A stretch of 36,575 bases of DNA from Candidatus Sumerlaeia bacterium (GTDB taxonomy: Bacteria; Sumerlaeota; Sumerlaeia; JADFCW01), in NCBI GenBank assembly GCA_026415575.1, contig JAOAGV010000037.1, positions 1-36,575 on the forward strand. Reading direction: 5' to 3'. Under the pieces are notes generated by a model. The model saw only the letters and a program-made list of their open reading frames with translations, was not told the DNA's origin and did not search any database. Made by a program: the position numbers and the translations under genes. Shown here in pieces: positions 1,886 to 34,778 of the stretch (positions are counted from its first letter, which is position 1; every line of letters starts with the position of its first letter).

Positions 1886-2587
1886 TCAAGGGGGAAATTC
1901 CGCCCGACCGGTCATCGGCACAAAACGGACGGGGATAACCCGGCGCTGGTCCAGCCCGTCGCTCCGCTTTTCGATGACATACAAATCCTGTTCGTATCGG
2001 CCCAACGGCAGCACAAGGCGTTTTCCCACCTTCAATTGATCAGTCAGCGCGTTGGGAATGTGATCCGGCGCCGCCGTCAGAATAATGCCGTCGAACGGGG
2101 CTTCTTCGGGAAGACCGCCGTAGCCGTCGCCTTCGAACACATGCACGTTGCGATAGCCCAGCCGCTCCAGCGTGTCCTGCGCACGGCGTGCCAGTTCCCG
2201 GACAATCTCGATGGTAAATACTTCGCAGCCCATTTCGGCCAAAATCGCCGTTTGGTAGCCGGAGCCGGTGCCAATCTCCAGCACTCTGTCGCCCGCTCCG
2301 ACTCCGAGCAATTCCGACATCAGGGCGACGATATACGGTTGGGAGATGGTCTGGTCGTAGCCGATGGGCAGGGGAGCGTCGGCATAGGCTTCGTCGCGCG
2401 CATACTCGGGAACAAAATAATGGCGCGGCACCGCGCGCATGGCGTTGAGCACCGCCGGCGACTGCACGCCGCGGCGGGCAATTTGACGGTCCACCATCTC
2501 GTGCCGCTGCCGCTCAAACTCCCGCTCGCGGTCCATTGCGGCGACATCCGGCGACCCGTTCGATTGCCAGCGGCGGAAAAATCTCAC
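1886..2587 (-). CDS. pcm: Protein-L-isoaspartate O-methyltransferase (cytosolic copy)
   Basis: The 233-residue protein transfers a methyl group from SAM to L-isoaspartyl residues in aged proteins, which starts their repair. PCMT family signatures are plain: RAVPRHYFVPEYARDEAYAD, then PLPIGYDQTISQPYIVALM, then the SAM-binding motif I LEIGTGSGYQTAILA, and a C-terminal VIPVRFVPMTG. No signal peptide is visible, so it should be cytosolic. The start is GTG and overlaps the TGA of the upstream lipoprotein PCMT by 4 bases (GTGA), which indicates translational coupling. An N-terminal extension of about 30 charged residues precedes the PCMT fold. The neighbouring PCMT is a diverged paralogue. Confidence 0.95.
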   Translation of the reverse strand: MRFFRRWQSNGSPDVAAMDREREFERQRHEMVDRQIARRGVQSPAVLNAMRAVPRHYFVPEYARDEAYADAPLPIGYDQTISQPYIVALMSELLGVGAGDRVLEIGTGSGYQTAILAEMGCEVFTIEIVRELARRAQDTLERLGYRNVHVFEGDGYGGLPEEAPFDGIILTAAPDHIPNALTDQLKVGKRLVLPLGRYEQDLYVIEKRSDGLDQRRVIPVRFVPMTGRAEFPP

Positions 2588-3501
2588 TCTTTGCCCACTT
2601 TCTGAATCTCGCCGGTCATCGGGACAAAACGAACCGGGATCACCACTTCGCGCACCAAGCCATTGCCGGCTTTTCTCGGCCGCTGGCCGTCCGGCGCGGT
2701 CTTGGTCAGCACCACCAGCTCCTGATGATATTGCGGGCCGATCGGCAGGACCATCCGTCCGCCGACTTTGAGTTGCTCTTCGAGCGGTTGGGGAATGCGT
2801 TCCGGCGCGGCCGTTACAATGATGCTGTCGAACGGTGCTTTTTCGGGCCAGCCCCGATAGCCGTCGCCCGCGCGCACAAACACATTCTCATAGCCAAGCC
2901 GCCGCAAGTCTTTTTCGGCCCGCTTGGCCAGCGGCTCGACTATTTCAATCGTATAGACCTCGTTGACCAGCAGGGCGAGAACGGCTGCCTGATAGCCGGA
3001 CCCCGTCCCGATCTCCAGCACGCGGTCGTCGGGTTTCGGTTTCAGCAGTTCCGTCATCAAGGCCACAATGTAGGGCTGCGAAATGGTTTGCCCATAACCA
3101 ATCTCCAACGGTTCGTCGGCGTAGCTAAACCGGCGGTAGGCAGCCGGCACGAATTCGTGGCGCGGCACCCACCGCATGGCTTCCAGCACCCGCGGGTCGC
3201 GCACCGGCGGCCGGCCGTCATAGGGGGTTTTCGGACCGATCGTGCGCTCGACCATTTCGTAGCGAGCGGTCCGAAATGCCGGCTCGGCCAGCGCTTTTTG
3301 CGAGGCTTTCGGCACGCGGAGATTGAGCCCCGTGGTCGGCCCGTCCGCCTGCACCGTTGGCGACGAGGCGGTGGTGTCCGACGGCACACTGAGCGCGGTC
3401 GCCGTGCCCGATTCGGCCGCCCGCGGCGCAGAAATGTCACCTTGCCGGCACGCAAGGCATCCCGCCAGCGTCAGAGCTGCCATCCATAATCCGAGGCGCA
3501 T
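2584..3501 (-). CDS. Protein-L-isoaspartate O-methyltransferase, predicted lipoprotein
   Basis: This second PCMT has about 305 residues and is preceded by a lipoprotein signal. Starting at the ATG, the sequence MRLGLWMAALTLAGC has a lipobox LAGC ending at Cys15, followed by a disordered Ser/Thr/Ala-rich linker of about 60 residues. The PCMT core then shows RWVPRHEFVPAAYRRFSYAD, LEIGYGQTISQPYIVALM, motif I LEIGTGSGYQAAVLA and VIPVRFVPMTG. A GTG one codon upstream is an alternative start, with GGAGGG placed well for either. An extracytoplasmic SAM enzyme is puzzling because SAM is cytosolic. Either the protein acts before export, or it is anchored facing the cytosol, or the family member does something else. 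It shares a 4-base overlap with the downstream pcm. Confidence 0.88.
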   Translation of the reverse strand: MRLGLWMAALTLAGCLACRQGDISAPRAAESGTATALSVPSDTTASSPTVQADGPTTGLNLRVPKASQKALAEPAFRTARYEMVERTIGPKTPYDGRPPVRDPRVLEAMRWVPRHEFVPAAYRRFSYADEPLEIGYGQTISQPYIVALMTELLKPKPDDRVLEIGTGSGYQAAVLALLVNEVYTIEIVEPLAKRAEKDLRRLGYENVFVRAGDGYRGWPEKAPFDSIIVTAAPERIPQPLEEQLKVGGRMVLPIGPQYHQELVVLTKTAPDGQRPRKAGNGLVREVVIPVRFVPMTGEIQKVGKE

Positions 3502-3577
3502 CACAGCCTTACCCTCCGTGCTTGATATTCCACAATTTCCCCCAGGGATGTCCAGAAAAATATGAACCTTTTGCCAG

Positions 3578-3677
3578 CGTGGCCTTTGGCCAAAACTGAA
3601 GAGGTTAGAGGCAAGAGGTTAGAGCGTAGAAAATATTTTTGCAAATTGGCTGGATGTTTAGACCGATAAGTCCAAAG
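3578..3677 (+). repeat. 100-base conserved upstream element, copy 1
   Basis: This is one of three copies that align over 100 bases without gaps (the others are at 22032-22131 and 31162-31261, both on the minus strand). By hand count, 67 columns are identical in all three. It opens with a hairpin (TGGCC-TTT-GGCCA here). It continues through GAGGTTAGAGGCAAGAGGTTAG and a conserved TGCAAAT(T/C)GGCTG(G/C)ATG block. It ends 14 bases before the ATG of the lipoprotein at 3692. Every copy has the same orientation relative to the gene it precedes. Confidence 0.85.
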
Positions 3678-3691
3678 GCAGGGAGATAAAC

Positions 3692-4195
3692 ATGAACCTA
3701 TACTCTTTGCGAATCGCCGCCCTCGCGCTTGCGGCTGCACTCCTGCTTCCGTCGGCCGCCTGCCGGCGCCGTTCCACCGCCGAACGGGAGATGATGAACC
3801 GGCTGGCCGGCACATGGACATGGAAGCAGCCGAAAACCGGTCGGGCCGCCGTGATTGAACTCACCCTGACCGCGCGCGGCACCTATGAACAAAAAGACTA
3901 TCTCGAAATCGGCGGCATCCGCAAACTCCTTTGGATTCGCGCCAATCCCGTGGACTCGGTGCCCGAACCCGACACGCCCGAAGAGATCGCCAAACTGAAG
4001 CGCGAGCGCTATGAACCGTCCGTCGTCACCGGCCGCTACAAGCTGGCCCTCGACCGCACGCCCCCCGTCATCATTTTCGAGAGCGACAAGGTGACGTCCA
4101 TGGACAAAACCGTCGGCCGCACGCAAAAAGAACACCCCTTTACACTGGAATCCGACAACCGCCTGACCCTTGGCGGACGCACCTATCAACGATAG
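3692..4195 (+). CDS. Small predicted lipoprotein of unknown function
   Basis: The protein has 167 residues. Its N-terminus, MNLYSLRIAALALAAALLLPSAAC, is a lipoprotein signal with Cys24 as the lipidation site, followed directly by an Arg-rich stretch. The mature part begins with RLAGTWTWKQ, the kind of opening seen in lipocalin-like or 'LAGTW' beta-barrel domains, and goes on with alternating beta-prone strands and a final LTLGGRTYQR. I cannot assign a family with confidence. A ribosome binding site GGGAG lies about 8 bases before the ATG. Copy 1 of the 100-base element ends 14 bases upstream, so any promoter or leader function of that element would act on this gene. The methyltransferase gene follows after 33 bases. 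Confidence 0.8.
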   Translation: MNLYSLRIAALALAAALLLPSAACRRRSTAEREMMNRLAGTWTWKQPKTGRAAVIELTLTARGTYEQKDYLEIGGIRKLLWIRANPVDSVPEPDTPEEIAKLKRERYEPSVVTGRYKLALDRTPPVIIFESDKVTSMDKTVGRTQKEHPFTLESDNRLTLGGRTYQR

Positions 4196-4228: not shown

Positions 4229-5254
4229 ATGGTAAAGCTGCACATTCGAGAATCTGCACTGGCGCGGGCGGTCGAATTTGCCCGTCGGCAGCGCGCCGGC
4301 GGCCGCCCCGTCCATCTGGCCGAGAACTACCACACCGGCAGCGGCCATGCCGACCATTTCCTCCGCAACGTTCTGCCGCGTCTGCTGCACTGCGGCCCGC
4401 TGGCCGGATGCCGGCTGCTGGACGTCGGCACGGGCATGGGATTTTTGGCCGCAATGCTGGCGGCCACCGAAGTGCGGCACGTCATCGCCACAGACAGCGA
4501 CTGGACGGCCGCCACGCCGCGGTCGGCCTTCTTGGTCGAACCATTGCAGAACATCTCCAAGCAGATGGACTTGAGCGGCGTGGTTTCGTTCCGCTCCGGC
4601 CGCCCCGAATACAACCCCGACCGGTTGGTCTTTGTGCAGGCCGACGGCGCGCGGTTGCCCTTTTGCGACGGCGCGTTCGACATAGTCTTCTCGCACGGCT
4701 GCCTCGAACATGTCGCCGACCTTGACCGACTGTTTGCGGAAATGTTTCGGGTGTTGAGGCCCGGCGGGCTGCTCTATGCGGAAAGCGAAAAATTCTGGGC
4801 ATCGCGCGACGGCTCGCACCTCTACGACATCTTCCCCGCCCCGTGGGCCCACCTTCTGGCCGACGCCGAAACCCTCTGGCAAATCTATGCGGCCGACCAC
4901 GGCGGAAAAGACATCCTCTGGCAAGGCCGGGCGGTGGACCGCGAGTTCTTTGTCGGAATGTTGACGACGGGGTTGAACCGGCGCGGCGTCGGGCCCGTCA
5001 AAAAAATCCTCGCCCGAAGCGGCTTCGATCTGGTCTTCTGGCAGCAACACATTCGACAGGAAGACCGGCAACTGCTGGCACAGCTGGGAGTGCGCCGCGC
5101 ACTGGCCGGCTGGCCGATTGAAGAGCTGCTCACGGCCCATGTGGCGTTTGGCGTGCGGAAACAGGCGGGGCGATGGAAAGGCCGGTTGCGGCTGTGGTGT
5201 CCGTGGTGGTTGCGTCGTGCCGCTCCCGAATGGCTCAAACGTCTTCTGCGCTAA
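4229..5254 (+). CDS. Class I SAM-dependent methyltransferase
   Basis: The 341-residue protein has a Methyltransf_11-type Rossmann fold at about residues 60-190. Motif I is LLDVGTGMGFLAAML. An acidic residue ends strand 2 (VIATDSD), and the post-motif block is FDIVFSHGCLEHVADLDRLF followed by MFRVLRPGGLLYAES. The substrate cannot be read from the sequence. Similar proteins modify small molecules, sugars or lipids. The C-terminal 120 residues are Arg-rich and lack a clear domain. There is no signal peptide. The gene follows the small lipoprotein by 33 bases on the same strand with no strong ribosome binding site, and it converges on the membrane protein gene across a C-rich, repeat-filled gap. 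Confidence 0.85.
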   Translation: MVKLHIRESALARAVEFARRQRAGGRPVHLAENYHTGSGHADHFLRNVLPRLLHCGPLAGCRLLDVGTGMGFLAAMLAATEVRHVIATDSDWTAATPRSAFLVEPLQNISKQMDLSGVVSFRSGRPEYNPDRLVFVQADGARLPFCDGAFDIVFSHGCLEHVADLDRLFAEMFRVLRPGGLLYAESEKFWASRDGSHLYDIFPAPWAHLLADAETLWQIYAADHGGKDILWQGRAVDREFFVGMLTTGLNRRGVGPVKKILARSGFDLVFWQQHIRQEDRQLLAQLGVRRALAGWPIEELLTAHVAFGVRKQAGRWKGRLRLWCPWWLRRAAPEWLKRLLR

Positions 5255-5305
5255 CCCACCTCCCCCCCTCCCTCCTCCCTCATCCCCCATCCCCCCATCC
5301 CTGAT
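5255..5305. other. C-rich polypyrimidine tract with G-quadruplex potential on the minus strand
   Basis: Directly after the methyltransferase stop, the plus strand is almost pure C and T with seven or more runs of three or more C. The minus strand therefore has many closely spaced G-tracts, the pattern needed for an intramolecular G-quadruplex. The tract sits between two convergent genes and leads into the TTCATCA heptamer array. Confidence 0.7.
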
Positions 5306-5311
5306 CCTTCA

Positions 5312-5367
5312 TTCATCGTTCATCATTCATCATTCATCATTCATCCTTCATCCTTCATCATTCATAA
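5312..5367. repeat. Tandem heptamer array (TTCATCA), eight units
   Basis: Eight consecutive 7-base units follow the pattern TTCATCN, with the last unit varying to TTCATAA. The array overlaps the last two codons and the stop (TGA, 5358-5360) of the membrane protein gene on the minus strand. The repeat has thus reached or formed the gene end. Heptamer arrays of this kind resemble the short tandem repeats known in cyanobacteria and other repeat-rich genomes. Confidence 0.9.
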
Positions 5368-7280
5368 ATCACATACCGATCATCGCTCTGAACGATTCTC
5401 ATCGCAAGAACCTGTTGAATGTAATAATGAATTCTATCAAACGTGGCCGACTGATACTGCGACCGGTCCACTACCAGCCATTTGGCATCCAGACGGAACC
5501 AACCTGCCCGTAGCGTCTGCAATTCTGGAACGGAGTTAATTCCCGCCTGCAAGCGTTTCATGTTCGTGAACCACCGTAAAAAAGGATTGGTCGCGGCATA
5601 CTCGAGAATATCCTCCGGCCGCCGAGAGACATACGGATTCACCATCGGCTGGTTGTGCACGGTTTGAGCATAGAGATTGAGATATTGATTATACACCATT
5701 GGGTACATCAATACCGTCGCGGGCGGTTGACTGCGCAGCCACTCCAGAGCGGGCGAAGCGGGAATGCGGCCCATGGGTTGGGGCAGATCGAGCCGCTCTG
5801 CCACCAGCAAGGCCGCACAAACTGCGAGCGCTCCTGTTGCTTTGCGTCGGGCCGCCGGCCCTTGCATACCCGCCAGCCAATCGGCCGCTTGCAGCCCGAC
5901 AAAGACCGCCATACACAGCCATGCGATAAACGCAAATCGCAGAAACACACGAATGGCCTGCAGGACAGCCACAAACTCGAAAATCATTGCCGGAAGAATG
6001 ATATGTTCGGCGGGATTAATCTTCCAGTGGACAATGCCGCCGAATTTGAGAACCGGGCCCAGCGAAAGAGCCAGAAAGACTGCGGCAATTGCCAGCCACT
6101 CGCCCCCCCGTCGTCCGCGGCGCGCCCAATACCATGCCGCCAGTGCGAACACTGCCCACGCCACATAGCCCGGAAATACGTCTGACGGGCCGGTGGTCCG
6201 CACGCCGTAAAGATAGGCGTCCGGCCAGTCGGGTCGCGCAAACAGCCGCGCAGCCCATTCACCCGGCATCAGGTAGCCGGCCAGATCTGCACCAAAGACT
6301 GCTTTCGCCACCAGCGGCGTGTCGCGCAGCCACGGCTGCTCCTGCATGGCGCGATACATGGGTATCACCACCGGCATCATGGCCAGTGCCGCCGCCCCGG
6401 CGCCCTGTGTAAGCCGCCGCACCAGACGCTGCATGGCGTCGCTTTCGCGCGAGGCCAGAAGCACCGCACACATGCCTGCAAACAAGGCGGCAAACAAAAA
6501 GGCATGAAAGACCAAATTGAACTGTCCGCCAATCAGGTAAATTGCCAACGCCACAGGCACCGCCCGCCGCACGGTTTTGTCGTGGCGGCGCACGGCGGGC
6601 GCGCGCGTTTGCCAGATTCTGGCCACAATCAGCAATGCCACCAGAATGGCCAGCTCCACTGCATGATGCCATTCGGCCAGCATGTTGAGCAGGCAGACGG
6701 CCGCCAACGCAATCGCCGCCGCAGGACGCGCCGTGGCCAACCATCGGCGGCCCGCCAGCAAAGCCAGCGGAATCCAGAACAGCGTGAACACATTCAGCTG
6801 GCTGGCCACGCGAAGATGGAGCGGAACAGTGCCGAAAACAAGCCCCGCCGCGATTGCCGCCGGCCGGCAACCGGTCATGTCCAGCACCAGCCAGCAGGCC
6901 GCCCAACCGGTCAGCGCCAAAATCACCCAAATCAGGATGTTGTATGAGGTTTCGAGCGAGAAAACCGAAAGCAACGGCAGGGCGACAAGGCAGTTTTGCA
7001 ACGAGAGTGTGGGGAAGACAAAAGCCGGCTTGCCCGGCCGGCACAACCAATCGCAGAAAGCCGGATTCTGATGCAACTCCAACAGGGCTTTTTTCACCCA
7101 CCAGAAATTCCAAAGAAAAATCGAAATGTCTGTGTTGGGCGCACCGTCTTGGGTCAATGTAATCAGGCCGTCGCCCAGCCGCCAAACCAGCGGCCATGTC
7201 TGAAGTGCGGCCAAGGCGAGGAAAAACACAAAAGCCGCAAAAAGGAACAAGCGCTGCCGGGCTAACAGAGTAGTCTGCAT
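5358..7280 (-). CDS. Polytopic membrane protein, GT-C-like glycosyltransferase candidate
   Basis: From the ATG at 7280 this is a 640-residue protein with roughly 11-13 hydrophobic segments, starting with LFLFAAFVFFLALAALQTW. The first extracytoplasmic loop carries LITLTQDGAPNTDISIFLWNFWW, with acidic residues in the position expected for a GT-C catalytic site. The motif VPLHLRVASQLNVFTLFWIPLAL resembles a pattern seen in bacterial membrane proteins annotated as mannosyltransferase-like. A soluble C-terminal domain of about 170 residues follows. The function is inferred from topology and not proven. The reading frame also extends upstream to a TTG at 7334 through Ser-Asp repeats encoded by the nonamer array. 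I prefer the ATG because the upstream part is pure repeat. Neither start has a good ribosome binding site. Confidence 0.75.
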   Translation of the reverse strand: MQTTLLARQRLFLFAAFVFFLALAALQTWPLVWRLGDGLITLTQDGAPNTDISIFLWNFWWVKKALLELHQNPAFCDWLCRPGKPAFVFPTLSLQNCLVALPLLSVFSLETSYNILIWVILALTGWAACWLVLDMTGCRPAAIAAGLVFGTVPLHLRVASQLNVFTLFWIPLALLAGRRWLATARPAAAIALAAVCLLNMLAEWHHAVELAILVALLIVARIWQTRAPAVRRHDKTVRRAVPVALAIYLIGGQFNLVFHAFLFAALFAGMCAVLLASRESDAMQRLVRRLTQGAGAAALAMMPVVIPMYRAMQEQPWLRDTPLVAKAVFGADLAGYLMPGEWAARLFARPDWPDAYLYGVRTTGPSDVFPGYVAWAVFALAAWYWARRGRRGGEWLAIAAVFLALSLGPVLKFGGIVHWKINPAEHIILPAMIFEFVAVLQAIRVFLRFAFIAWLCMAVFVGLQAADWLAGMQGPAARRKATGALAVCAALLVAERLDLPQPMGRIPASPALEWLRSQPPATVLMYPMVYNQYLNLYAQTVHNQPMVNPYVSRRPEDILEYAATNPFLRWFTNMKRLQAGINSVPELQTLRAGWFRLDAKWLVVDRSQYQSATFDRIHYYIQQVLAMRIVQSDDRYVIYE

Positions 7281-7290
7281 GGAAGATGAG

Positions 7291-7344
7291 TCGGATAAGT
7301 CAGACGAGTCGGACACCCCGGAAACGTCGGACAAATCGGACTTT
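7291..7344. repeat. Nonamer array TCNGACNNN, locus 1 (six units)
   Basis: Six 9-base units follow each other without gaps: TCGGATAAG, TCAGACGAG, TCGGACACC, CCGGAAACG, TCGGACAAA, TCGGACTTT. The array fills the space between the ATG of the membrane protein (7280) and the stop of the upstream DUF1080 gene (7352). Read on the minus strand in frame with the membrane protein it would encode Ser-Asp-X, the same phase used at the two intragenic loci (20080-20133 and 27254-27370). Confidence 0.88.
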
Positions 7345-17451: not shown

Positions 17452-17745
17452 ATGTTGAAGCGACTTCTGGGATTGGTCGTGGCAGTAGCGTTTGCAGTCG
17501 GCGTAACGGCGTGCGGAGGCGGAACAACGCCAGAACCCGCCAAGCCGAAAGAGCCCAAGGCCAAAGAGGCAACCAAAGCGGCCGAACCGGCGAAACCGGC
17601 AGAAGCGGCGAAACCGGCAGAACCGGCGAAGCCCGCAGAACCGGCGAAACCCGCCGAACCGGCCAAGCCGGCTGAACCGGCGAAACCCGCCGAGCCTGCT
17701 CCGGCAGCTCCGGCCCCGGCGCCTCCGGCAGCGCCCGGCAAGTAA
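17452..17745 (+). CDS. Small lipoprotein with AKPAE repeats
   Basis: The 97-residue protein starts MLKRLLGLVVAVAFAVGVTAC, a lipoprotein signal with Cys21, followed by GGG. The rest is almost wholly low complexity: a Lys/Glu/Pro/Ala region, then about seven to eight copies of the pentapeptide AKPAE (a 15-base DNA repeat), and a Pro/Ala tail ending in APGK. It probably forms an extended, periplasm-spanning rod anchored in the outer membrane, like other Ala-Pro-Lys spacers, with no catalytic domain. The ribosome binding site (AGGAGGAGGTGA) is unusually strong. A hairpin sits in the leader, and three consecutive inverted repeats follow the stop, so high expression is plausible. The repeat number may vary between strains. 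Confidence 0.82.
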   Translation: MLKRLLGLVVAVAFAVGVTACGGGTTPEPAKPKEPKAKEATKAAEPAKPAEAAKPAEPAKPAEPAKPAEPAKPAEPAKPAEPAPAAPAPAPPAAPGK

Positions 17746-18605: not shown

Positions 18606-20447
18606 TCATTTCGCCTTGAGCCTGTAAATATCCGGTTCGGGAAAATATATTCGCTCCTTGACCGCCGCCACGTCCGGGTCGCGCAGAAGGGGAATTTCGA
18701 TCCGCTCGGCTTCGGCGCCGATGCGCGGGTCATACCATGTCGCAAAGACCGGCCGGCGCTGCAAGTTGGGCGCCACAATGTCGTGCGCCATTGTGCGAAA
18801 GAACTCTTCTTCCGTCGGCGTCTCGGCAAACGTGCGAAACGCCACGGGCGGATCATAGCGGCCTTCAAAGTATTTGCCGTAGCCGGGGGTCGCAAGAAAA
18901 TTGCGGCCGAAGACCACCACATCGCGCCTACGATGCTCGACAATCTGCTGATACCACAGCGGCTCGATGTCGTAATCGGCGGCGGTCAGGATTAGGGCGT
19001 TGAACGGCAGGCGTTCGAGCACGTCGCGCCCGTAGCGCTCGGCGGCCGTGTAGCCCGAATGGTCGGCCGCGGCCCGTCCGCGCAGACACATGCCCACGGG
19101 CAGCGCCATCATCAGACAGGCCAAAAGGGCCGACGAGTGGGCCAGCAGGCGCGATTCGGCCCACCGGTGCAACTGCGCCGCCGCAACGACAAGGCAAAGG
19201 ATTACGATTACATGCGCGGGGAAAAAGTAGCCTTCGATGTCATGGATGCTGTAAATCATCACTGCGACCGCATTCATCGCCACGACGATGGCCAGAGATG
19301 CCGCGAAAAGCGGCTGTCCGCGCCAGAGAATTCGCCATCCCAAAATTGCCCCGAACAGCACCAGGCAACCTAAAAGGATTGGCACTGCCGCCGGTGCTTC
19401 GTGCAACACAACCAGCTGCCCGCCCATCCATTCGAGCCACTCACGCAAACGATAACGCAAAAAGACCGGGTAGGTTTCCGAATCGAACGGTGTTCCTTGA
19501 ACGATGGGACGGTCAGGGAACAGCCATTGCGGAACTTTCAGCAAATAAAACTTGCGAAATTCACCTCCGCGCACCGACCAGAGAAACCGCTGCATATTCG
19601 ACGGATCGCCCCAGTTCAGCGGCGGATTCTGCGCGGCCCGAAGAGGCAAATACAAATAGACCGACAGTCCCGCAATTCCCGCCAGAAGTGCGGGGAGAAC
19701 CAATCGCGTCAACCGCCGCTGCAACGGCTCTCGCGCAGGAATGGCTTTCCGTTTCCGGCCGGTTGGCTCCGGCCGGGGCGGAATCAACATCCATCCACCG
19801 ACAACGGCCAGCACGGGCATGAGCAACATGCCGGCCATCGTGTGGTTGCCCATACCCAGAGCGCAGAGGAAGCAGGCGGCGATGAACCAGCGCCGGTCGC
19901 GTGTGAGGACAACCGACAGAATCAGATTCAGGACGCCCGCAACAATGGCCGCATTGAGCAGATAGACTTCGCTCAATCCAGCGTGATACCAGAACGTCTG
20001 CGAGAAGGCCGTGCACCATCCGGCGCCGGCGGCAAAGGCGGCGTGGGACATGATGGCGGGCTGTTTGGTTTTTTTCTTGTCGGTCGGGTCAGACGGGTCG
20101 GACAAGTCGGCCGGGTCAGATAGGTCGGATGTTTGGCGAGGGCGGCTGTGTCTCAGCAGCCGCCACACCAGCCATGCCACCAACGCGGCCAGTACAGAGC
20201 CGGTGGCCAGCGACATTAAGTTCATCCGAAAAGCAATGGTCCCGAGCGGAATTCTTGTGAACAGATGTCCCAGGAGGGAATACAGCGGATAGCCCGTCGG
20301 GTGCGCAACGCCAAGGACGGCGGCCACACAGGTCAATTCAATCCCGTCGCCCCAATAAATCGTCGGGCAGATCGTGGTGGAATAAACCACAACCGCCACC
20401 AGCGGAACGAAAATCATCATCAGCATACCCGTCCGCCGCTCGCTCAC
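18606..20447 (-). CDS. DUF2723 (TMEM260-like) polytopic membrane protein
   Basis: From the GTG at 20447 the protein has 613 residues. The DUF2723 signature is clear at residues 28-63: CPTIYWGDGIELTCVAAVLG followed by VAHPTGYPLYSLLGHLF. Its acidic residues (D34, E37) lie in the first extracytoplasmic loop, as in GT-C enzymes. About ten membrane segments follow, then a soluble C-terminal domain of roughly 170 residues. TMEM260-type proteins are O-mannosyltransferase-like. The likely donor is a polyprenyl-linked sugar made by the adjacent GT2. A cytoplasmic loop at about residues 106-122 is made of Ser-Asp-Pro/Leu repeats encoded by the nonamer array. The start overlaps the upstream gene's TGA by 4 bases (GTGA), with GAGG 10 bases ahead, so a start further upstream is unlikely. 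Confidence 0.88.
   Translation of the reverse strand: MSERRTGMLMMIFVPLVAVVVYSTTICPTIYWGDGIELTCVAAVLGVAHPTGYPLYSLLGHLFTRIPLGTIAFRMNLMSLATGSVLAALVAWLVWRLLRHSRPRQTSDLSDPADLSDPSDPTDKKKTKQPAIMSHAAFAAGAGWCTAFSQTFWYHAGLSEVYLLNAAIVAGVLNLILSVVLTRDRRWFIAACFLCALGMGNHTMAGMLLMPVLAVVGGWMLIPPRPEPTGRKRKAIPAREPLQRRLTRLVLPALLAGIAGLSVYLYLPLRAAQNPPLNWGDPSNMQRFLWSVRGGEFRKFYLLKVPQWLFPDRPIVQGTPFDSETYPVFLRYRLREWLEWMGGQLVVLHEAPAAVPILLGCLVLFGAILGWRILWRGQPLFAASLAIVVAMNAVAVMIYSIHDIEGYFFPAHVIVILCLVVAAAQLHRWAESRLLAHSSALLACLMMALPVGMCLRGRAAADHSGYTAAERYGRDVLERLPFNALILTAADYDIEPLWYQQIVEHRRRDVVVFGRNFLATPGYGKYFEGRYDPPVAFRTFAETPTEEEFFRTMAHDIVAPNLQRRPVFATWYDPRIGAEAERIEIPLLRDPDVAAVKERIYFPEPDIYRLKAK
20080..20133. repeat. Nonamer array TCNGACNNN, locus 2, inside the DUF2723 gene
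   Basis: Six uninterrupted 9-base units: TCGGTCGGG, TCAGACGGG, TCGGACAAG, TCGGCCGGG, TCAGATAGG, TCGGATGTT. They encode Ser-Asp-Leu/Pro repeats on the minus strand. Sequence type and phase match the arrays at 7291-7344 and 27254-27370, although the host genes are unrelated. Confidence 0.9.
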
Positions 20448-22006
20448 TGGGCCGACCTCATGCCTTCGATGCGGAAAATGACTGTACGAAACCGCTGGGG
20501 CGTGTAGCGGTAAAACCACGCCGCCGGATTTTGATGCGTATCGGGATTCTCCATGATGTCGGGAAGAAGTGGCACGAGCGAAGACTCGAACCACGCCGCT
20601 TCGCTCACGTCATAGCGTTGCCGCAGCAACTCGATCTGCCGCTCGAACCGAAGCATGGGCGCCACAAGGGTGGGAACAGGGCTTAGTCCCCCATAGCAGC
20701 TGTGCAAGCAGACATAGTCGCCCTTGACCAACCGCGCCGAATCATCCAGCCCCTCGACCTTGCGTCCCGACCAATACGACATTTTCACCGCTGGCATTTC
20801 GGGCTTGTAGAATTCGTTCGAGAAGATTCGCGCGTCCGGCGGCAGCGATGCGCAATACTGCGCCGCCTGCTTGATGTCGCCGAACGCTCCGCGTTGAAGC
20901 CAAATCACCGCCAGCGACCATCCGAGGGAATAGAAAAGAATCAAGCAAAGGGCGGCGCGAACCCACCGCAATCGGCCAACGGCGGATTGTTCCCACCTTG
21001 CCGCTGCCACTCCCCCCATCACCATCATAAATGGAATCAGAGGCAGAAGATAGCGCTCCTGATAGGCCGAAAAGACCGCCTGCATGGCGATCAGTGCCGC
21101 TGCAATGGCCAGAAAGACAAGGCCAAATACCCGCATTCCGAAGTCGCCTTTGAGCAAGGTGATCAGACCGAGCAGACAAAGCACGAACACAGGGACGGTG
21201 ATGAAGTAGGGAAAGAGCAGGACAAAGCTTTCGATCAGATTCCAGTAATTCAGCAAACTCGCCCCAAGGCCGGCTCCGGCGCGTTCTGCGATTTGTTTGG
21301 TGTGGCCGCCAAACAAGCTTGCGCGAAAGCCGATGCTCCAAATCACAACATAAAGAGCGATTGCAACAACAGCCGCAGCCGTCAGACGATTGGGGGAACT
21401 TGTCCGTTTTCTCCATCGAATTGCCAGAATTAAAACTCCTCCAAACATAACCAACGACAAAACTCCCTGAAAGCGTGTGATGCCTCCAAGCGCACCGAGA
21501 AAGCTTCCGAACACCATGGCTGCATACAGCATGTTTTCCCGTAAGCGCCGTGACTTTTCATCGCCCGCCGGCAAATCGCGCAGGCCGCAAACTCCGGCCC
21601 AATACAGCACGGCGGACGAGAAAAACAGCACTACAAACAACGCATCGCTCATGACGCGAATGCTCCAGCGCCATGCAAGGGCATTGGCCATGAGCAGCAA
21701 CGAGGCATAAACAGAGGCGCGGCGGCCGCCCAACCGGAACGCCGTCCAATACACGGGAATAACGAGCAGCGCGGATGCGGCAATGGAGATGAGTTTGCCG
21801 GCGGTCTCCGCATCGCCGACCGCGCCTTTCAGCGCCTGAATCAGCGCGGTATAAAGCGGCGGCCAGAACGTGAAGCCGTATTGGAAGGCGATGATCTGAA
21901 GAATGCCGTCGGTGTATTCGGCCGCATTGAGGTTCAGGCAGGCGAGTCGGGCGGCGAGGGCGATTGCGACAAAGAGGAGGAGAATCTTGCGATCAATCGA
22001 GGCCAT
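20444..22006 (-). CDS. Polytopic glycosyltransferase family 39/83-like membrane protein
   Basis: The 520-residue protein has about ten to twelve membrane segments. It opens with KILLLFVAIALAARLACLNL, then a first loop AAEYTDGILQIIAFQYGFTFWPPLYTALIQAL. The Glu-Tyr-Thr-Asp there is in the position of the acidic catalytic residues of ArnT and PMT-type GT-C enzymes, and WPPLYTALIQ resembles their conserved second motif. WSIRVMSDALFVVLF fits the next conserved helix. The C-terminal 130 residues are soluble. The probable role is transfer of a sugar from a lipid carrier to a surface acceptor. It starts with ATG, and copy 2 of the 100-base element lies 25 bases upstream. It heads a three-gene unit with the DUF2723 gene and the GT2 gene. 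Confidence 0.85.
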   Translation of the reverse strand: MASIDRKILLLFVAIALAARLACLNLNAAEYTDGILQIIAFQYGFTFWPPLYTALIQALKGAVGDAETAGKLISIAASALLVIPVYWTAFRLGGRRASVYASLLLMANALAWRWSIRVMSDALFVVLFFSSAVLYWAGVCGLRDLPAGDEKSRRLRENMLYAAMVFGSFLGALGGITRFQGVLSLVMFGGVLILAIRWRKRTSSPNRLTAAAVVAIALYVVIWSIGFRASLFGGHTKQIAERAGAGLGASLLNYWNLIESFVLLFPYFITVPVFVLCLLGLITLLKGDFGMRVFGLVFLAIAAALIAMQAVFSAYQERYLLPLIPFMMVMGGVAAARWEQSAVGRLRWVRAALCLILFYSLGWSLAVIWLQRGAFGDIKQAAQYCASLPPDARIFSNEFYKPEMPAVKMSYWSGRKVEGLDDSARLVKGDYVCLHSCYGGLSPVPTLVAPMLRFERQIELLRQRYDVSEAAWFESSLVPLLPDIMENPDTHQNPAAWFYRYTPQRFRTVIFRIEGMRSAQ

Positions 22007-22015: not shown

Positions 22016-22041
22016 CCGCTTGTAGTTCAGACTTTAGACTC
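22016..22041 (-). repeat. Degenerate 26-base hairpin unit beside the GT gene start
   Basis: On the minus strand this is a 14-base part, GAGTCTAAAGTCTG, plus a 12-base tail, AACTACAAGCGG. It has the same layout as the units at 22149-22252 in the opposite orientation. The stem is imperfect. It overlaps the last 10 bases of element copy 2. Confidence 0.6.
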
Positions 22042-22131
22042 TTCGGTCTATCCATGCAGCCAATTTGCATGGGTCTTTTCTAACTTCGAACTTCTTGCCT
22101 CTGACCTCTTTGGTTGCGGCCGACGGCCACG
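22032..22131 (-). repeat. 100-base conserved upstream element, copy 2
   Basis: This aligns without gaps to copies 1 and 3 over 100 bases. Its 5' hairpin is GTGGCC-GTC-GGCCGC. It ends 25 bases before the ATG of the GT39-like gene (22006) and is in that gene's orientation. It carries TCTAAA where copy 3 has TATAAA. Confidence 0.85.
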
Positions 22132-22148
22132 TTAGGATATGGGTCCGG

Positions 22149-22252
22149 CACACCGAAGCGTGAACTACAAACACCAAACTGACGTCTGGTTTATGTAGGG
22201 CACGCTGAAGCGTGAACTCCATACGGCAGACTAAAGTCTGGACTGCATACGG
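22149..22252 (+). repeat. Four tandem 26-base hairpin units
   Basis: Units start at 22149, 22175, 22201 and 22227, exactly 26 bases apart. Each has a 5-4-5 hairpin: CACAC-CGAA-GCGTG, CAAAC-TGAC-GTCTG, CACGC-TGAA-GCGTG and CAGAC-TAAA-GTCTG. Each ends with a 12-base tail such as AACTACAAACAC or AACTCCATACGG. Stems differ but mostly remain paired. The array ends 1 base before the tyrA stop codon and fills the gap up to the GT gene. Confidence 0.85.
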
Positions 22253-22253: not shown

Positions 22254-23117
22254 TCATGGGATCAGGCGTTTGCGAAACTCGCGCGCTTTTACGAGGCGAC
22301 CGAGCACAGCGTCGCCCTGCCCGTCGCGGATTTCATCGGCCATGATCAGAAGGTCGCCGCCAAGATGTTCGAGGGCGTCGGCAAGCGCTGTGCGGTTCTC
22401 CAAACAGATGTCGCGCCAGACTTCGGGCGGGCCGGCGGCCACGCGCGTCGTATCGCGAAATCCGTTGCCCAAAATCGTTGCCAGCAGAGCGGTATCTTCG
22501 CGGCTTTCGGCGGCGGTCAACAGCACGCCGACCGCAGCCATGTGGGGCAGATGGCTGACCAATGCGACAAGCCGGTCGTGGCGTTGGGGATCGAGCCGGA
22601 CGGTGCGGCCGCCGAATGCGCGCCAAAACAATTCCACCCGTTCGATCGCACTGCGCTTGGTTTGCCGGGTTGGCGTCACCACGCAGCAGGCGTTGACAAA
22701 CAGGTCGGCCGATGCATGGGCCACGCCGCTGCGCTCGCTGCCGGCCATCGGATGCGAACCAACAAACAGCGGCCCCTGTTTGCCGAAGTGTTTCTCCGCC
22801 TCGGCCACAATGGTGGCTTTCGTGCTTCCCACATCGGTGACAATCGCGGAGGCTTTGCATAGGGTGGCCAGACGCGGCAACAGCTCCACAATGTGCGAAA
22901 CGGTCGAACAGAGCACGATCCAGTCGGCGTCGGCGCATCCGTCTTCGAGCGATGTGGTAAATTCGTCAATGGCGCCGCGCTCGACGGCCTCGGCCAGTCG
23001 TTCTTCCGACCGCCCGATGCCGATGATGCGGTCGGCCAGCCGATGGGCGCGCGCCGCCAGCCCGACCGACCCGCCGAGAAGACCAACCCCGTAGATTGCC
23101 AGTGTGCCGATATGCAA
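22254..23117 (-). CDS. tyrA: Prephenate/arogenate dehydrogenase
   Basis: The 287-residue protein oxidatively decarboxylates prephenate or arogenate in tyrosine synthesis. The NAD(P) motif GVGLLGGSVGLAAR lies near the N-terminus, followed by IGIGRSEERL. Then come DWIVLCSTVSHIVELLP, IVTDVGSTKATI with the conserved Gly-Ser, and the substrate block GSHPMAGSERSGVAHA. The helical dimerisation domain contains HDRLVALVSHLPHMAAVGVL and FRDTTRVAAGPPEVWRDI. There is no ACT or chorismate mutase domain, so it is monofunctional. The start must be TTG (23117): the frame has no ATG or GTG before an upstream stop, and GGAG sits 8 bases ahead (23126-23129). It is preceded by hisC and pheA on the same strand with small gaps. 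Confidence 0.93.
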   Translation of the reverse strand: MHIGTLAIYGVGLLGGSVGLAARAHRLADRIIGIGRSEERLAEAVERGAIDEFTTSLEDGCADADWIVLCSTVSHIVELLPRLATLCKASAIVTDVGSTKATIVAEAEKHFGKQGPLFVGSHPMAGSERSGVAHASADLFVNACCVVTPTRQTKRSAIERVELFWRAFGGRTVRLDPQRHDRLVALVSHLPHMAAVGVLLTAAESREDTALLATILGNGFRDTTRVAAGPPEVWRDICLENRTALADALEHLGGDLLIMADEIRDGQGDAVLGRLVKAREFRKRLIP

Positions 23118-26682: not shown

Positions 26683-27438
26683 TCAGCCGGGATTGGCACT
26701 GAACCGTTCGCGGAGCGATTCGATCGAGGGCAGCTCCGCAAGACTTTTCAAACCGAAGTGTTTCAGGAAGTGTTGCGTGGTACCATACAAAAAGGGTCTT
26801 CCGGGAACGGGTTTCTGCCCCACCGTTTCGATCAATTCCATTTCGAGCAGGGCATGGACGATGCCGCTCGAATCCACGCCGCGGATTGCATCAATTTCGG
26901 CACGAATGATCGGCTGCTTGTAGGCAATAATCGCAAGGGTTTCGAGCATGGCCTTGGAAAGCCCGATGCGGCCTTTCCGTTTGCGGAACGGCGCCAGATA
27001 GTCGGCAAAGCGCGGACGCGTGGCCATTTGATAGCCGCCGGCCACCTCGACCACCTGCAATCCGCTTCCACGATCGTCATACTCGCTCTGCAACTCAACC
27101 AGAAGGGCGCGCAAATCGTTTTCCTTGAGCGGCTTGACCAGATCGCGCAGCTGCTTGAGCGTCAAAGGCTCGACGGCGGCGAACAGTAGGCATTCGAGAA
27201 CGGCCTTGGCCTCGGCGCGGCTTTTGACGCGCGGGACTTTATAGCGACGGCCTTCGGACTGGTCGGACTGGTCGGACACGTCGGATGTATCCAATTTCTC
27301 TGACTCGTCCGACTTCTCTGACTTGTCTGAGTCGTCCGACCTGTCAGACTCGTCCGACTTTTCCAACTCACTCGACTGAGCGGCTTCGTGTTCGTTTTCT
27401 TCAGATTCCGGCTTCTGGTTGCGTTTCGGGGAAGACAT
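26683..27438 (-). CDS. scpB: Segregation and condensation protein ScpB, with Ser-Asp repeat N-terminus
   Basis: From the ATG at 27438 the protein has 251 residues. It is the kleisin-binding partner of ScpA in the SMC condensin complex. The core, residues 70-235, is a tandem winged helix: AVLECLLFAAVEPLTLKQLRDLV, then LQVVEVAGGYQMATRPRFADYL and LSKAMLETLAIIAYKQPIIRAEIDAIRGVDSSGIVHALLE. It ends with the diagnostic GRPFLYGTTQHFLKHFGL. An unusual N-terminal extension holds about twelve Ser-Asp-X repeats at residues 27-63, encoded by the nonamer array. This part is acidic, disordered and not part of the ScpB fold. The start overlaps scpA by 38 bases with GGAGG ahead, so translation is coupled. Confidence 0.93.
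   Translation of the reverse strand: MSSPKRNQKPESEENEHEAAQSSELEKSDESDRSDDSDKSEKSDESEKLDTSDVSDQSDQSEGRRYKVPRVKSRAEAKAVLECLLFAAVEPLTLKQLRDLVKPLKENDLRALLVELQSEYDDRGSGLQVVEVAGGYQMATRPRFADYLAPFRKRKGRIGLSKAMLETLAIIAYKQPIIRAEIDAIRGVDSSGIVHALLEMELIETVGQKPVPGRPFLYGTTQHFLKHFGLKSLAELPSIESLRERFSANPG
27254..27370. repeat. Nonamer array TCNGACNNN, locus 3, inside scpB
   Basis: Thirteen contiguous 9-base units without a break, for example TCGGACTGG (twice), TCGGACACG, TCTGACTCG, TCCGACTTC and TCCGACCTG. The first two bases TC and the GAC are most constant, while the third base and the last three vary. On the minus strand they encode Ser-Asp-X in the N-terminal tail of ScpB. Confidence 0.9.
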
Positions 27439-30174: not shown

Positions 30175-31131
30175 TCAATAGCCCAACACCTTGCGCACGA
30201 ACTCGCGGCTCATTTTCAGGCTCTCGCGGATCGGGCGCGTGGGCGTGAAATCACGCTCGTGGGCCAGTTCAATCACCGCGTCACCCTGAAAGCCCGCCTC
30301 GCGCAGCGCTTTGGCAATCTCGACGTAGTCCATGTCGCCCTCGCCCAGCGCTTCCGACCACCGGCCGTCCTTTTTCTGGTCGCGCAAGTGTAGGAAAACA
30401 ATCTGCCGGCCGTAGCGCCGGATGAACGCCGCCGGGTCCACCTTGCCGCGCAGAAGCCAGTTTAGGTCGGGGCCGAGTTTGACGTCGGGGATGCGGGCCA
30501 GTGTGCCTTTGAGGTCGTGCATATCGTCGGCCACTTCGTAGGTGTGGTTGTGGAGATTGAGCACGACGCCGTTTTTCTCGCACAGAGCGATGATTTTGCG
30601 GAGAAGACCGGCTTGCGCATCGAGCTGTTCCTCGGTTTTTTTCTTCGGCGCCTGTCCAACGGAAACGCCAAGAGTCCGCCCGCCCAACTTGGCCAGCCGC
30701 GTTACAACCAACTCGGCATCTTCAAGCACTGCCTCGTGCTGCGCGCGGTTCCACATTGCGCCGCCGAAGGATGTTCCGATGACCGGCAGGCGGTGCTTCT
30801 GGGAAAGTTCGCCGATGCGTGCCACGGCGTCGTCGGGACGCAGCGCCGTGTGCATCAACTCGACCCCGTCCATGCCGGCGTAGTGCATGTCGGCGAAAAT
30901 CTGCGGCAGAGCGGGCGTGATGTCGTAGCCGGGCAGAGTGGCGGCATAGACCCACGGGTGGGCGCCGACGAGGACTTTGGGCGGCGCGGCCGGCACGGGT
31001 GGGGCGGCAAACGCGGCAGAGGACGTGCGCGACACTGTCCCGCCGGCGAGGCCAAGTGCGCCGGCTGCGGCGGAGCACAAAAAGCTGCGTCGGGAGTGTT
31101 TCCCGGTCAAGCCGGAGTCCGTTGCTTTCAT
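30175..31131 (-). CDS. Tat-exported sugar phosphate isomerase/epimerase-like protein (TIM barrel)
   Basis: The 318-residue protein starts with KHSRRSFLCSAAAGALGLAGG, a twin-arginine signal, then an Ala/Pro-rich linker to about residue 50. The AP-endonuclease-2-type TIM barrel follows with the divalent-metal ligands in order: the Glu in GMDGVELMHTAL, the His pair in VVLNLHNHTYEV, the Asp in VKLGPDLNWLL, the His in IVFLHLRDQ and the Glu in DAVIELAHER. This is the fold of xylose isomerase, L-rhamnose isomerase and inositol catabolism proteins (PF01261), and also of keto-sugar epimerases. The substrate is unknown. It lies beside an exported MocA oxidoreductase, as such proteins often do. GGGGGA lies 7 bases ahead of the ATG. 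Copy 3 of the 100-base element ends 30 bases upstream. Confidence 0.9.
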   Translation of the reverse strand: MKATDSGLTGKHSRRSFLCSAAAGALGLAGGTVSRTSSAAFAAPPVPAAPPKVLVGAHPWVYAATLPGYDITPALPQIFADMHYAGMDGVELMHTALRPDDAVARIGELSQKHRLPVIGTSFGGAMWNRAQHEAVLEDAELVVTRLAKLGGRTLGVSVGQAPKKKTEEQLDAQAGLLRKIIALCEKNGVVLNLHNHTYEVADDMHDLKGTLARIPDVKLGPDLNWLLRGKVDPAAFIRRYGRQIVFLHLRDQKKDGRWSEALGEGDMDYVEIAKALREAGFQGDAVIELAHERDFTPTRPIRESLKMSREFVRKVLGY

Positions 31132-31161
31132 GGGTTCCCCCTTTTCTGATAAATATCGGAG

Positions 31162-31261
31162 CTTTATATTCTTCGCTCAAAACATCCAGCCGATTTGCAA
31201 AGGTCCTTTATAACTTCCAACCTCTTGCCTGTGACCTCTTTGGTTGTAGCCAAAGGCTACG
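31162..31261 (-). repeat. 100-base conserved upstream element, copy 3
   Basis: This is the third copy, gapless against copies 1 and 2. Its hairpin is GTAGCC-TTT-GGCTAC, in which the fourth stem position has changed from G-C to A-T on both arms relative to the other copies. It ends 30 bases before the ATG of the sugar isomerase-like gene, in that gene's orientation, and carries TATAAA at 31163-31168. Confidence 0.85.
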
Positions 31262-31273
31262 TGGGCCTATCCC

Positions 31274-32548
31274 TCACTTGGGCATCGGTGAGGGTGGAAT
31301 AGGCGGCGGCGGAACAGGATTGGCCACATAGGCCAGTTCTTTCGGTCCGTATTTTTCCTGCATTTTCATGACTTGATTCCATGTTACGCGCTGGCCGGTG
31401 TAGGCCGAAGTCCGGCCCATGATGGCCATGAGCGTGCTGCGCGCAATGTTTTCGGCTTCGTTGAGATAGGGCGCTTCGCCGCGCACGGCCGCAATCAGAT
31501 CGGTATGTTCCTGAATATAGGGTTTGGTGCCGTCGGCCTCGGACTTCCACGTTTTGCCTCCGCTGTGGATGGTCCCGCTGGGGTCGCAGGTGCCCTTTGT
31601 GCCGACGACCCATTCGCCGATTTTGTTCCAGCAGTTGTCAATTTGGCGGCACATGCTGTGGACATAGACATCGTTGGGGAAGACATACTCGACGGCAAAG
31701 TTGTCGTAGCAGTCGCCGAAGGGGCGGCGCAGCTGGCTGCCCATGCCACGCGCCTCAATGGGATTGGTTCCCAGCACCCACATGATGACGTCTATGTTGT
31801 GGCAATGTTGTTCCACGATATGGTCGCCGCACGTCCACCGCCAGCGATACCAAGTGCGGATTTGGTATTCCACGTCGCTCATTTCCGGCGGTTTGGGCGG
31901 ATAGATGCGGGCGCTGCCGCCGCCGCACCACCAGATGTTGGCGGCGACGATGTCGCCGATGGCCCCGTCATGGATTCTCTTGATGGTCTCGATGTAGGTG
32001 GCTTGGTGGCGGCGCTGCGAGCCGACGGCGATGTTGAGTTTTTTGGCGCGGGCTTTTTCTCCCGTCGCGATGACTTGGCGACAGCCGGGGGCGTCCACGG
32101 CGGCGGCCTTTTCCATGAACACGTGCTTGCCCGCCTCGATCGCGGCATCGAGATGGATGGGGTGGAAGTAGATCGGACTGCAAATCAGGATGATGTCGCA
32201 GTCGGTCTTCATCATTTGCTTGTAGCCGTCCAGCCCGGTGAAGCATTGGTCGGGGGTGACGGCGAATCCGTCGGCGACCTGCTTGTTGTTCTGCAGCGCG
32301 CTACGCAATTCCTCGATGGGTTCCTCGAGCAGATCACAGAGGGCGGTGAGTTTGACATTGTCCGCAGCCTTGAGAACGTCCACGGCGGCAACGGAGCCGC
32401 GCCGGCCGCAGCCGATCAAGCCGACCTTGAGGGGATCGGCGTTGCCGGCGTGGGCAGCGTGAAGAATGTTGAAGCCGGCGAGCGCGGAAGACGCCGCCGT
32501 GGTTTTAAGGAAGCGGCGTCGGGAGACATGGTGAGACTGCGTTTTCAT
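31274..32548 (-). CDS. Tat-exported Gfo/Idh/MocA family oxidoreductase
   Basis: From the ATG at 32548 (GGAGGT 6 bases ahead) the protein has 424 residues. MKTQSHHVSRRRFLKTTAAS is a twin-arginine signal. The Rossmann motif is LKVGLIGCGRRGSVAAVDVL, followed by LTALCDLLEEPI. The family EKP motif is altered to MEKAAAVD, which keeps the lysine. A histidine-rich block, WTCGDHIVEQHCHNIDVIMWVLG, matches the C-terminal catalytic section. The protein ends in a Pro-rich tail (NPVPPPPIPPSPMPK). This is the well-known exported MocA type of PVC bacteria. Its diverged paralogue is at 12987. Together with the isomerase-like gene downstream it may process an exported sugar. Confidence 0.92.
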   Translation of the reverse strand: MKTQSHHVSRRRFLKTTAASSALAGFNILHAAHAGNADPLKVGLIGCGRRGSVAAVDVLKAADNVKLTALCDLLEEPIEELRSALQNNKQVADGFAVTPDQCFTGLDGYKQMMKTDCDIILICSPIYFHPIHLDAAIEAGKHVFMEKAAAVDAPGCRQVIATGEKARAKKLNIAVGSQRRHQATYIETIKRIHDGAIGDIVAANIWWCGGGSARIYPPKPPEMSDVEYQIRTWYRWRWTCGDHIVEQHCHNIDVIMWVLGTNPIEARGMGSQLRRPFGDCYDNFAVEYVFPNDVYVHSMCRQIDNCWNKIGEWVVGTKGTCDPSGTIHSGGKTWKSEADGTKPYIQEHTDLIAAVRGEAPYLNEAENIARSTLMAIMGRTSAYTGQRVTWNQVMKMQEKYGPKELAYVANPVPPPPIPPSPMPK

Positions 32549-32854: not shown

Positions 32855-33973
32855 ATGGCGGACGGTTTTGAAAACGAATTCCCAATCCTGAATGACGTGA
32901 TCTTTCTCAACCATGCAGGCGTTTCGCCGCTGCCGGCGCGTGCGGCGCGCGCCATGCGCCAAGCCATTGACGATCTCGAACATCACGGCCCGTTGCGCCA
33001 GCGCGAGGCGGTCAAGCGCATGGAATGGCTGCGCGGGGCGGCGGCGCAAATGCTGCATTGCACCGCCGACGAGATTGCCTTTGTCAAGAACACCACCGAG
33101 GGCCTGAGCCTCGTGGCTGAGGGACTGGACTGGCGCGAGGGCGACAACATTGTTACTGCTGCGCACGAATTCCCCGCCAACATCTACCCGTGGCGAAGTC
33201 TGGCGCGGCGCGGTGTCGAGCTGCGAATTGTGGCCGAGCGAAACTACCGTTTCGAGGTTGCCGATTTTGCCGCCGCAATGGACTCGCGCACACGTCTGGT
33301 CACGGTCTCCGCCGTGCAGTTTTCCACCGGCTTTCGCATGCCGCTCGAAGCGCTGGGCGAGCTCTGCCGCGAGCGCGGTGTGCTTCTGTGTGTGGATGCC
33401 ATTCAGGCGTTGGGCGCAGCGGCCCTCGATGTGCAGCGGTGCAACATCGCCTTTCTTTCGGCCGACGGCCACAAGTGGCTGCTGGGGCCGGAAGGCTTTG
33501 GCGTGTTTTACTGCCGCCGCGACTGCATCGAACGCCTACCCAACTGTATCCTCGGCTGGCTGGGCGTTCCTGAGCCGTCCAACTATGACCGCGCCGATCA
33601 GCCGTGGGTGCCGACGGCGCGGCGATTTGAAGAAGGTTCGCACAACCTTGTCGGTGCGGTCGGATTGGCCGGATCGGTCGAGTTGCTCTTGGAAATTGGT
33701 CTCGAGCAGGTCGAGCGGCGCATTCTGGATTTGACGCGGTTGCTGTTGGAAGGATTGGAGCGCCGCGGGTGCGAGATTTTTACGCCGCGGGAGGACGCTT
33801 TGCGTTTGGGCATTGTGGCGTTTCGCCATCCTGCGGTAGCAAGCGATGTTCTGTTCAGGCGGCTTTTGGAACGAAAGATTGTCGGGGCACACCGGCGCGG
33901 ATGGATTCGATTCTCGCCGCATTTTTACAACCGCAAAGAGCAGATCGAGGCAGCGCTGGCGGCACTGGACTGA
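32855..33973 (+). CDS. Class V aminotransferase (SufS/isopenicillin-N-epimerase-like)
   Basis: From the ATG at 32855 (GGAGCGGG ahead) the protein has 372 residues. It is a fold-type I PLP enzyme of class V. FPILNDVIFLNHAGVSPLPARAARAM is the N-terminal block. EIAFVKNTTEGLSLVAEGL binds the PLP phosphate, HEFPANIYPW follows, VLLCVDAIQALGA carries the PLP aspartate (D181), and SADGHKWLLGPEG the Schiff-base lysine (K207). HYN-type endings are replaced by FSPHFYNRKEQIEAALAAL. It lacks the catalytic-loop cysteine region typical of active cysteine desulfurases, so it looks closer to the isopenicillin N epimerase-like group, whose substrates are mostly unknown. It stands alone and converges on HU. Confidence 0.9.
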   Translation: MADGFENEFPILNDVIFLNHAGVSPLPARAARAMRQAIDDLEHHGPLRQREAVKRMEWLRGAAAQMLHCTADEIAFVKNTTEGLSLVAEGLDWREGDNIVTAAHEFPANIYPWRSLARRGVELRIVAERNYRFEVADFAAAMDSRTRLVTVSAVQFSTGFRMPLEALGELCRERGVLLCVDAIQALGAAALDVQRCNIAFLSADGHKWLLGPEGFGVFYCRRDCIERLPNCILGWLGVPEPSNYDRADQPWVPTARRFEEGSHNLVGAVGLAGSVELLLEIGLEQVERRILDLTRLLLEGLERRGCEIFTPREDALRLGIVAFRHPAVASDVLFRRLLERKIVGAHRRGWIRFSPHFYNRKEQIEAALAALD

Positions 33974-34389: not shown

Positions 34390-34778
34390 CTGTCCATCCT
34401 CCTGCGCTTGAAATTTGTTCGGTCATCCCGGTTGGCTTTGATTTTGGCCGTCCGGCCATACTACATGCGGTGACGCGAGTCCCAATCAATCCTTTCAGGA
34501 CATTCTTGTTCCTACGCGCGCGTTTTGCGCGCGTCAATGACGATTTTTGAAAAAAATGCGAGTTTTTTGCGGGGGACAAAAAGCCTTTTTGCCCTTCTAT
34601 GGGGAAAGAGAATAGACGCCGACTCGCCTGACTTTATTTCCGCTGATTGGGTGTTTTTTCCTTTCTGCATCTTCCATTCTTTGGCTTCTGTTGTCGGCCA
34701 GATTGCAGAGGGCTTTCTCGAACTACCGGCCTCTCGGTTCGGAGTTCTAATTGCTTGTAGCTGCCGGCCACAATAAGA
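34390..34778. other. Upstream region of HU, no gene seen
   Basis: This 389-base region separates HU from tRNA-Leu. It holds a candidate HU promoter with an inverted repeat (34509-34537) and no coding sequence. The reading frame that runs from here into the tRNA is a tRNA shadow. Confidence 0.6.
34509..34537 (-). promoter_or_regulatory. Candidate HU promoter with an internal inverted repeat
   Basis: On the minus strand TTGACG (34532-34537) and TAGGAA (34509-34514) are 17 bases apart. The -10 is poor. The spacer is filled by ACGCGCGC and GCGCGCGT arms (34514-34521 and 34527-34534), an inverted repeat that could be an operator or a hairpin. Confidence 0.35.

Follow-up and report, generated by a model that had tools for sequence, protein, structure and literature searches.

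Three copies of a 100-base element stand just upstream of three different genes, each in the orientation of the gene that follows, in the stretch of DNA analysed here (the window; 36,575 nucleotides, contig 186 of a 255-contig, 4.67-Mb Candidatus Sumerlaeota MAG), which raises the question whether they constitute a common regulatory sequence or copies of a repeat that has moved about the genome. The initial annotation preferred a common leader, promoter or regulatory RNA for membrane-bound or exported products, kept a mobile intergenic repeat as the alternative, and suggested a model search of the genome, a tabulation of distance and orientation relative to the next gene and a test for covariation. 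On redoing the alignment, the copies at 3578-3677 (+), 22032-22131 (-) and 31162-31261 (-) were found to match over 100 columns without gaps, 67 of them invariant, and the stated spacings to the ATG codons at 3692, 22006 and 31131 (14, 25 and 30 bases) are correct for the ORFs named there; for the third copy, the coding-potential caller used here favours a start later than ATG 31131. Among the three products, a Pfam match was obtained for the third only (xylose-isomerase-like TIM barrel, PF01261); 'lipoprotein' and 'GT39-like' had no family match at E<=0.001. Together with a conserved CTAA, the copies extend to the limits given in Table 1, and the resulting unit of about 103-105 bp is referred to as element A.

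Table 1. Copies of element A, their neighbouring genes and the loci of paired copies
Feature	Coordinates	Strand	Basis or remark
Element A copy 1 (solo)	3574-3678	+	ungapped alignment; model E=4.5e-26
Neighbour of copy 1, PCMT gene	2584-3501	-	own gene calls
Neighbour of copy 1, 167-aa ORF	3692-4195	+	own gene calls
Element A copy 2 (solo)	22031-22135	-	alignment; model E=3.6e-28
Neighbour of copy 2, prephenate dehydrogenase	22254-23117	-	
Neighbour of copy 2, ORF	20444-22006	-	
Element A copy 3 (solo)	31161-31264	-	alignment; model E=1.2e-25
Neighbour of copy 3, Gfo/Idh/MocA gene	31274-32548	-	
Neighbour of copy 3, TIM-barrel gene	30175-31131	-	
Fourth, decayed copy of element A	34695-34775	-	E=2e-5; directly 3' of a tRNA gene on the same strand
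tRNA gene beside the fourth copy	34782-34864	-	
Spacers of paired A copies holding modules B and C	L061-L166		

The window also holds other repeated sequences. Repeat D (units such as GGCACACCGAAGCGTGAACTACAAAC) adjoins copy 2 at 22147-22241, and the same-genus genome carries a longer repeat-D tandem at the matching place, plus many D copies elsewhere. Repeats of the TCGGACNNG kind with a nine-base period occur at 7287-7325, 20071-20136, 27250-27297 and 33647-33680, nine-base units of AAACCGGCA/GAACCGGCG type form a run at 17539-17699, and a tandem CATTCATCATTCAT-like repeat occupies 5296-5383, around the 5254-5358 gap. Two adjoining genes at 1886-3501, the second of which encodes protein-L-isoaspartate methyltransferase, resemble each other over 167 nt (71% identity) in stretches that lie 737 bp apart.

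Chance similarity of the window copies is excluded by the genome-wide search, which makes them part of a large family: a DNA search and a sequence model built from 34 copies detected at least 154 copies of A in the genome (E<=0.01, best 4e-31), and a 25-base core pattern allowing up to three mismatches gave 60 matches as compared to 0 for the reversed control. The copies diverge from the consensus, CTAA-CGTGGCCTTTGGCCACAACCAAAGAGGTCAGAGGCAAGAGGTTAGAAGTTAGAAAAGATCTTCGCAAATTGGCTGGATGTTTAGACCGAAGAGTCTAA, by a median of 15% (7-28%), mostly through transitions; a few diagnostic columns define subfamilies, and the copies are without coding capacity, most reading frames on either strand being interrupted by stops. 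Placement was surveyed in the genome pieces around each A copy (589 kb), using genes from our own coding-potential model trained on these pieces, whose starts are approximate, and 113 of the 114 A clusters turned out to be intergenic. Dispersed, diverged, non-coding and mostly intergenic, the copies have the properties of a small interspersed intergenic repeat. Among 41 genomes searched, relatives of A were detected only in the same-genus genome (14, all weak), and several of these represent a form of about 70 bp that lacks the middle purine block. An exact-pattern scan of named genomes, with A's own records left out, gave no match, an Rfam search with A matched no family, and no relevant paper on a repeat family of A's kind was found in the Sumerlaeota literature. 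As far as we could find in that literature, the family is new, and it is of a kind already known.

The left junction of A is CTAA, exact in 51/114, with each position conserved in 74-84% and most of the others one step away, and the right junction is NAA; conservation drops sharply beyond both ends. No terminal inverted repeats were found in A on comparing the left end CTAACGTGGCC by eye with the reversed right end CTTTAGACTCTTC, and hence A does not have the form of a DDE-type MITE. Besides solo copies of the element, there are head-to-tail arrays and pairs of direct repeats that enclose one of two other modules. In the head-to-tail arrays of C201 and C193, one CTAA is common to adjoining units, and close A neighbours are co-oriented in 37 of 39 cases. 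Paired copies are typically 250-312 bp apart with module B or module C between them (A-B-A, A-C-A). Module B consists of two inverted GCGGCAGCCATGCTGCCGC hairpins (about 162 bp), and 212 of its half-sites (GCGGCAGCATGGCTGCCGC) are present in the genome; module C is of GGTCGGGGTGGAACCCGACC type (about 180-207 bp), and also GGAGGGATGCGTTCCACCGCATCC. Composite arrays with other recurrent modules are thus formed by A, as in BIME-like mosaics. We also considered A as the 'LTR' of a composite element and rejected this, as identity within pairs (0.77) is hardly above that of random pairs (0.75) and does not support a recent LTR-like insertion.

With respect to genes, the 114 clusters include 41 that are tandem co-directional, 11 tandem opposed, 22 convergent and 16 divergent, the rest being at contig or locus ends. 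The suggested tabulation shows a non-random orientation in same-strand gaps, where co-directional and opposed A stand at 41:11 (p=3.6e-5), or 31:7 with well-supported neighbours, so the orientation half of the original argument extends to the whole genome. The placement half does not, for there is no fixed distance to starts: the next co-oriented start lies 1 to >1000 bp away, within 35 bp in 11/66 cases and beyond 100 bp in 39/66, and the three window copies are therefore at an extreme of a wide spread. Of 66 starts that face the right end of A, 20 are within 71 bp of it, as compared to 0 of 29 that face the left end (p=2.8e-4), a threshold picked after looking at the data, with p=0.016 at 50 bp and 0.004 at 100 bp. 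Antisense A is missing directly upstream of genes. Stops show no such asymmetry around the ends of A; many copies follow immediately after a stop codon or, in one place, a tRNA, and an end of A forms the stop codon of the neighbouring gene 13 times, the left end in 7 of these cases and the right end in 6. The common class of exported or membrane products, as proposed from the window, disappears at genome scale, where exported-like products follow A in 17/59 cases (29%) against a background of 71/199 (36%; p=0.35).

These figures bear on whether A acts as a regulatory RNA (a 5' leader, a riboswitch-like element or another type) that controls exported or membrane proteins as a regulon. The preference for sense A upstream of same-strand genes, with sense copies only within 71 bp of starts, is in agreement with such a role; however, RNAalifold predicted zero base pairs on 34 A copies. 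Two hairpins visible by eye scored 0.128 over 146 copies as against 0.124 in shuffles, 113 of 500 shuffles being as high, and although 82% of the hairpin cells are paired, the suggested covariation test gave double changes and covariation that match the shuffles, so that these are not conserved subterminal hairpins. Covarying structure, an Rfam match and downstream enrichment of exported-like products, by which a cis-regulatory RNA might be recognised, are all lacking in A, start distances range widely and A is missing at orthologous loci (see below), and a regulatory RNA is accordingly very improbable. That A serves as a promoter or transcription-start element ahead of genes is scarcely credible either; its exclusively sense orientation near starts would suit this role, but a scan confined to sigma-70-like promoters found none in the three window copies, 22 clusters are located between convergent genes, many copies are directly behind stops or a tRNA, and the distance to starts varies. 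Copy number, mosaics, lack of structure and absence at orthologous sites all disfavour the main reading of the initial annotation, whereas its alternative, a mobile intergenic repeat, gains from the same genome-wide view of at least 154 copies, mosaic and tandem arrangements and orthologous absence.

We consider it very probable that A is an intergenic repeat of about 100 bp that is non-autonomous and either mobile or once was, belonging to one Sumerlaeota genus, with a preference for CTAA and a mosaic organisation. Presence and absence at orthologous sites are documented with one clean empty site, C22:39419, where A lies directly behind a stop codon and about 103 bp are absent in the same-genus genome G001 with both flanks aligned. 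It is also absent in the same-genus genome at C186:22031 (window copy 2) and C206:24059, where the surroundings are altered. The decayed copy adjacent to a tRNA gene (Table 1) is common to both same-genus genomes and decayed in both, and synteny was seen to break at several A loci.

Judging from the junctions, A would insert immediately 3' of a CTAA tetranucleotide, bringing its own 3' CTAA; against this, the CTAA may have been inherited with A and need not be a target. In coding sequence CTAA and TTAG together are eight times less frequent than between genes (0.47/kb vs 3.95/kb), and because CTAA is rare in coding sequence and provides a stop codon on each strand, insertions would be steered to gene ends without lengthening proteins. 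This preference alone would steer many insertions out of genes, and for the near-total intergenic location selection is needed too. The mover of A is putative, and by analogy its closest precedent would be an HUH/Y1-type enzyme that works on single strands and in trans; A has the fixed short left junction of IS200/IS605-derived elements, in the form of CTAA and the common CTAA in arrays. The sole RAYT-like gene of the genome (79.3 bits, cut-off 80) has REP pairs of GGACCGCCGGCGGCCCGC type on its flanks (gene and pairs at L104:2258-3007 and L104:2178-2304); A interrupts one pair, and the paralogous pair is intact; as its own REP differs from A, this gene was rejected as the cognate RAYT. The single IS200-like Y1 transposase (150 aa), which together with long CAGCCCTTGAACGGAGCTGCC-type repeat arrays before it is found at L113:3100-4264, lies 500 bp from an A copy, but other repeats intervene and the proximity was judged coincidental. 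The consensus ends of integron attC sites are RYYYAAC and GTTRRRY; the left end of A resembles the former, but its right end is without the latter, and attC was set aside. The points that we counted against mobility are that no transposase is convincingly tied to A, that terminal inverted repeats are absent and that just one clean empty site was seen.

The strand asymmetry fits tolerance or selection better than a regulon. We would tentatively suggest, at somewhat short of an even chance, that the bias arises after insertion, in that an antisense strand rich in pyrimidines and C, when transcribed between promoter and gene, lowers expression. The 44-base core of A contains 13 C, 5 G and 9 YC steps in antisense and 5 C, 13 G and 2 YC in sense; by composition, the antisense strand is C-rich, G-poor and YC-rich as would be expected of a Rho-utilisation site, and the genome encodes a rho gene. 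Antisense A may act, for example, as such a site, with the purine-rich sense strand being tolerated in leaders and operons. However, a Rho barrier should make the bias stronger where gaps are short, and no such trend is seen across gap-length classes (11:2, 9:3, 11:2, 10:4), which counts against it. Replication strand as the cause of A orientation finds no support in 22 leading to 19 lagging copies, by a GC3-skew test that is weak on pieces of about 6 kb, and the orientation of CTAA itself, at 99:95 in same-strand gaps, was rejected as the cause.

Other origins of the bias have to be weighed against loss of antisense copies. Positive selection would be at work if A were a domesticated ex-mobile repeat whose purine-rich sense RNA is useful in operons, for example through spacing, mRNA stability or antitermination. 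A sense-strand function of A is possible, the bias is present in gaps of all lengths and copy 3 lies between plausible operon partners, Gfo/Idh/MocA and TIM-barrel isomerase; but A copies vary freely, show no covariation and are not conserved between species, and domestication seems quite improbable. Alternatively, A may be mobile with a bias that comes not from selection but from the insertion mechanism itself, which would favour the non-template strand where transcription leaves it single-stranded. A single-strand target is suggested by the stop-codon-adjacent sites together with CTAA specificity, and gap length does not alter the bias; nevertheless, in convergent gaps A is not nearer to the co-oriented gene, and the total absence of antisense A near starts is better explained by loss, making such a mechanism unlikely as the source.

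Known repeat systems provide several partial parallels to A as a mobile or formerly mobile repeat. REPs are palindromes of 20-40 bp with a GTAG or CGTC tag, ORFs next to GTAG REPs often take their stop codon from the ends of these repeats (PMC3733652), and the BIMEs and REPs of enterobacteria and pseudomonads occur in many intergenic copies, in mosaics and in gaps between same-strand or convergent genes (PMC2817692, PMC3733652). With more than 100 intergenic copies, mosaics with other modules, a preference for same-strand or convergent gaps and ends that give neighbours their stop codons, A is similar; unlike REPs, it is about 100 bp long and non-palindromic, does not maintain its hairpins and lacks the tag and palindrome of REPs and REPINs, and its pairs have the same orientation whereas the REPs of BIMEs alternate. 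BOX, RUP and SPRITE of Streptococcus pneumoniae have been interpreted as parasitic elements with slow transposition (PMC3049150). They resemble A in being modular, small, multi-copy and species-restricted; however, BOX has ISSpn2-like ends and strong secondary structure, neither of which is seen in A, and all three are over-represented between convergent genes, while the bias of A concerns its orientation between same-strand genes. Unlike the non-palindromic A, ERIC has the form of a long imperfect palindrome, and the sequence relation of the two was compared via Rfam only. ERIC sequences are described, as quoted in PMC3049150, as intergenic, inserted into operons and having orientation-dependent transcript effects, and A likewise is intergenic, occurs in operons and shows an orientation bias. 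IS200/IS605 elements possess a fixed short left-junction sequence, no terminal inverted repeats and hairpin potential near the ends (PMC6006769). All of these are found in A, which differs in having no A-flanked transposase, no conserved hairpins and no detected lagging-strand bias (22:19). PATE-like non-autonomous elements, with a fixed left junction, no terminal inverted repeats and hairpin potential near the ends, are comparable to A in the same respects.

A bolder proposal would have A represent a novel class of mobile intergenic element, one that has no inverted repeats, inserts 3' of CTAA, uses a stop-bearing site as a safe harbour on both strands, depends on a putative new enzyme and forms a one-way transcription barrier in leaders, and this we regard as rather doubtful. 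As a mobile or formerly mobile repeat, A explains the same element ahead of three genes without a regulon. The family also carries a warning, as such repeats occur at contig ends and can pass for riboswitches. Element A, a family of mosaic repeats present in high copy number in a phylum that is uncultured, provides a natural data set on strand selection of passenger repeats with respect to transcription.
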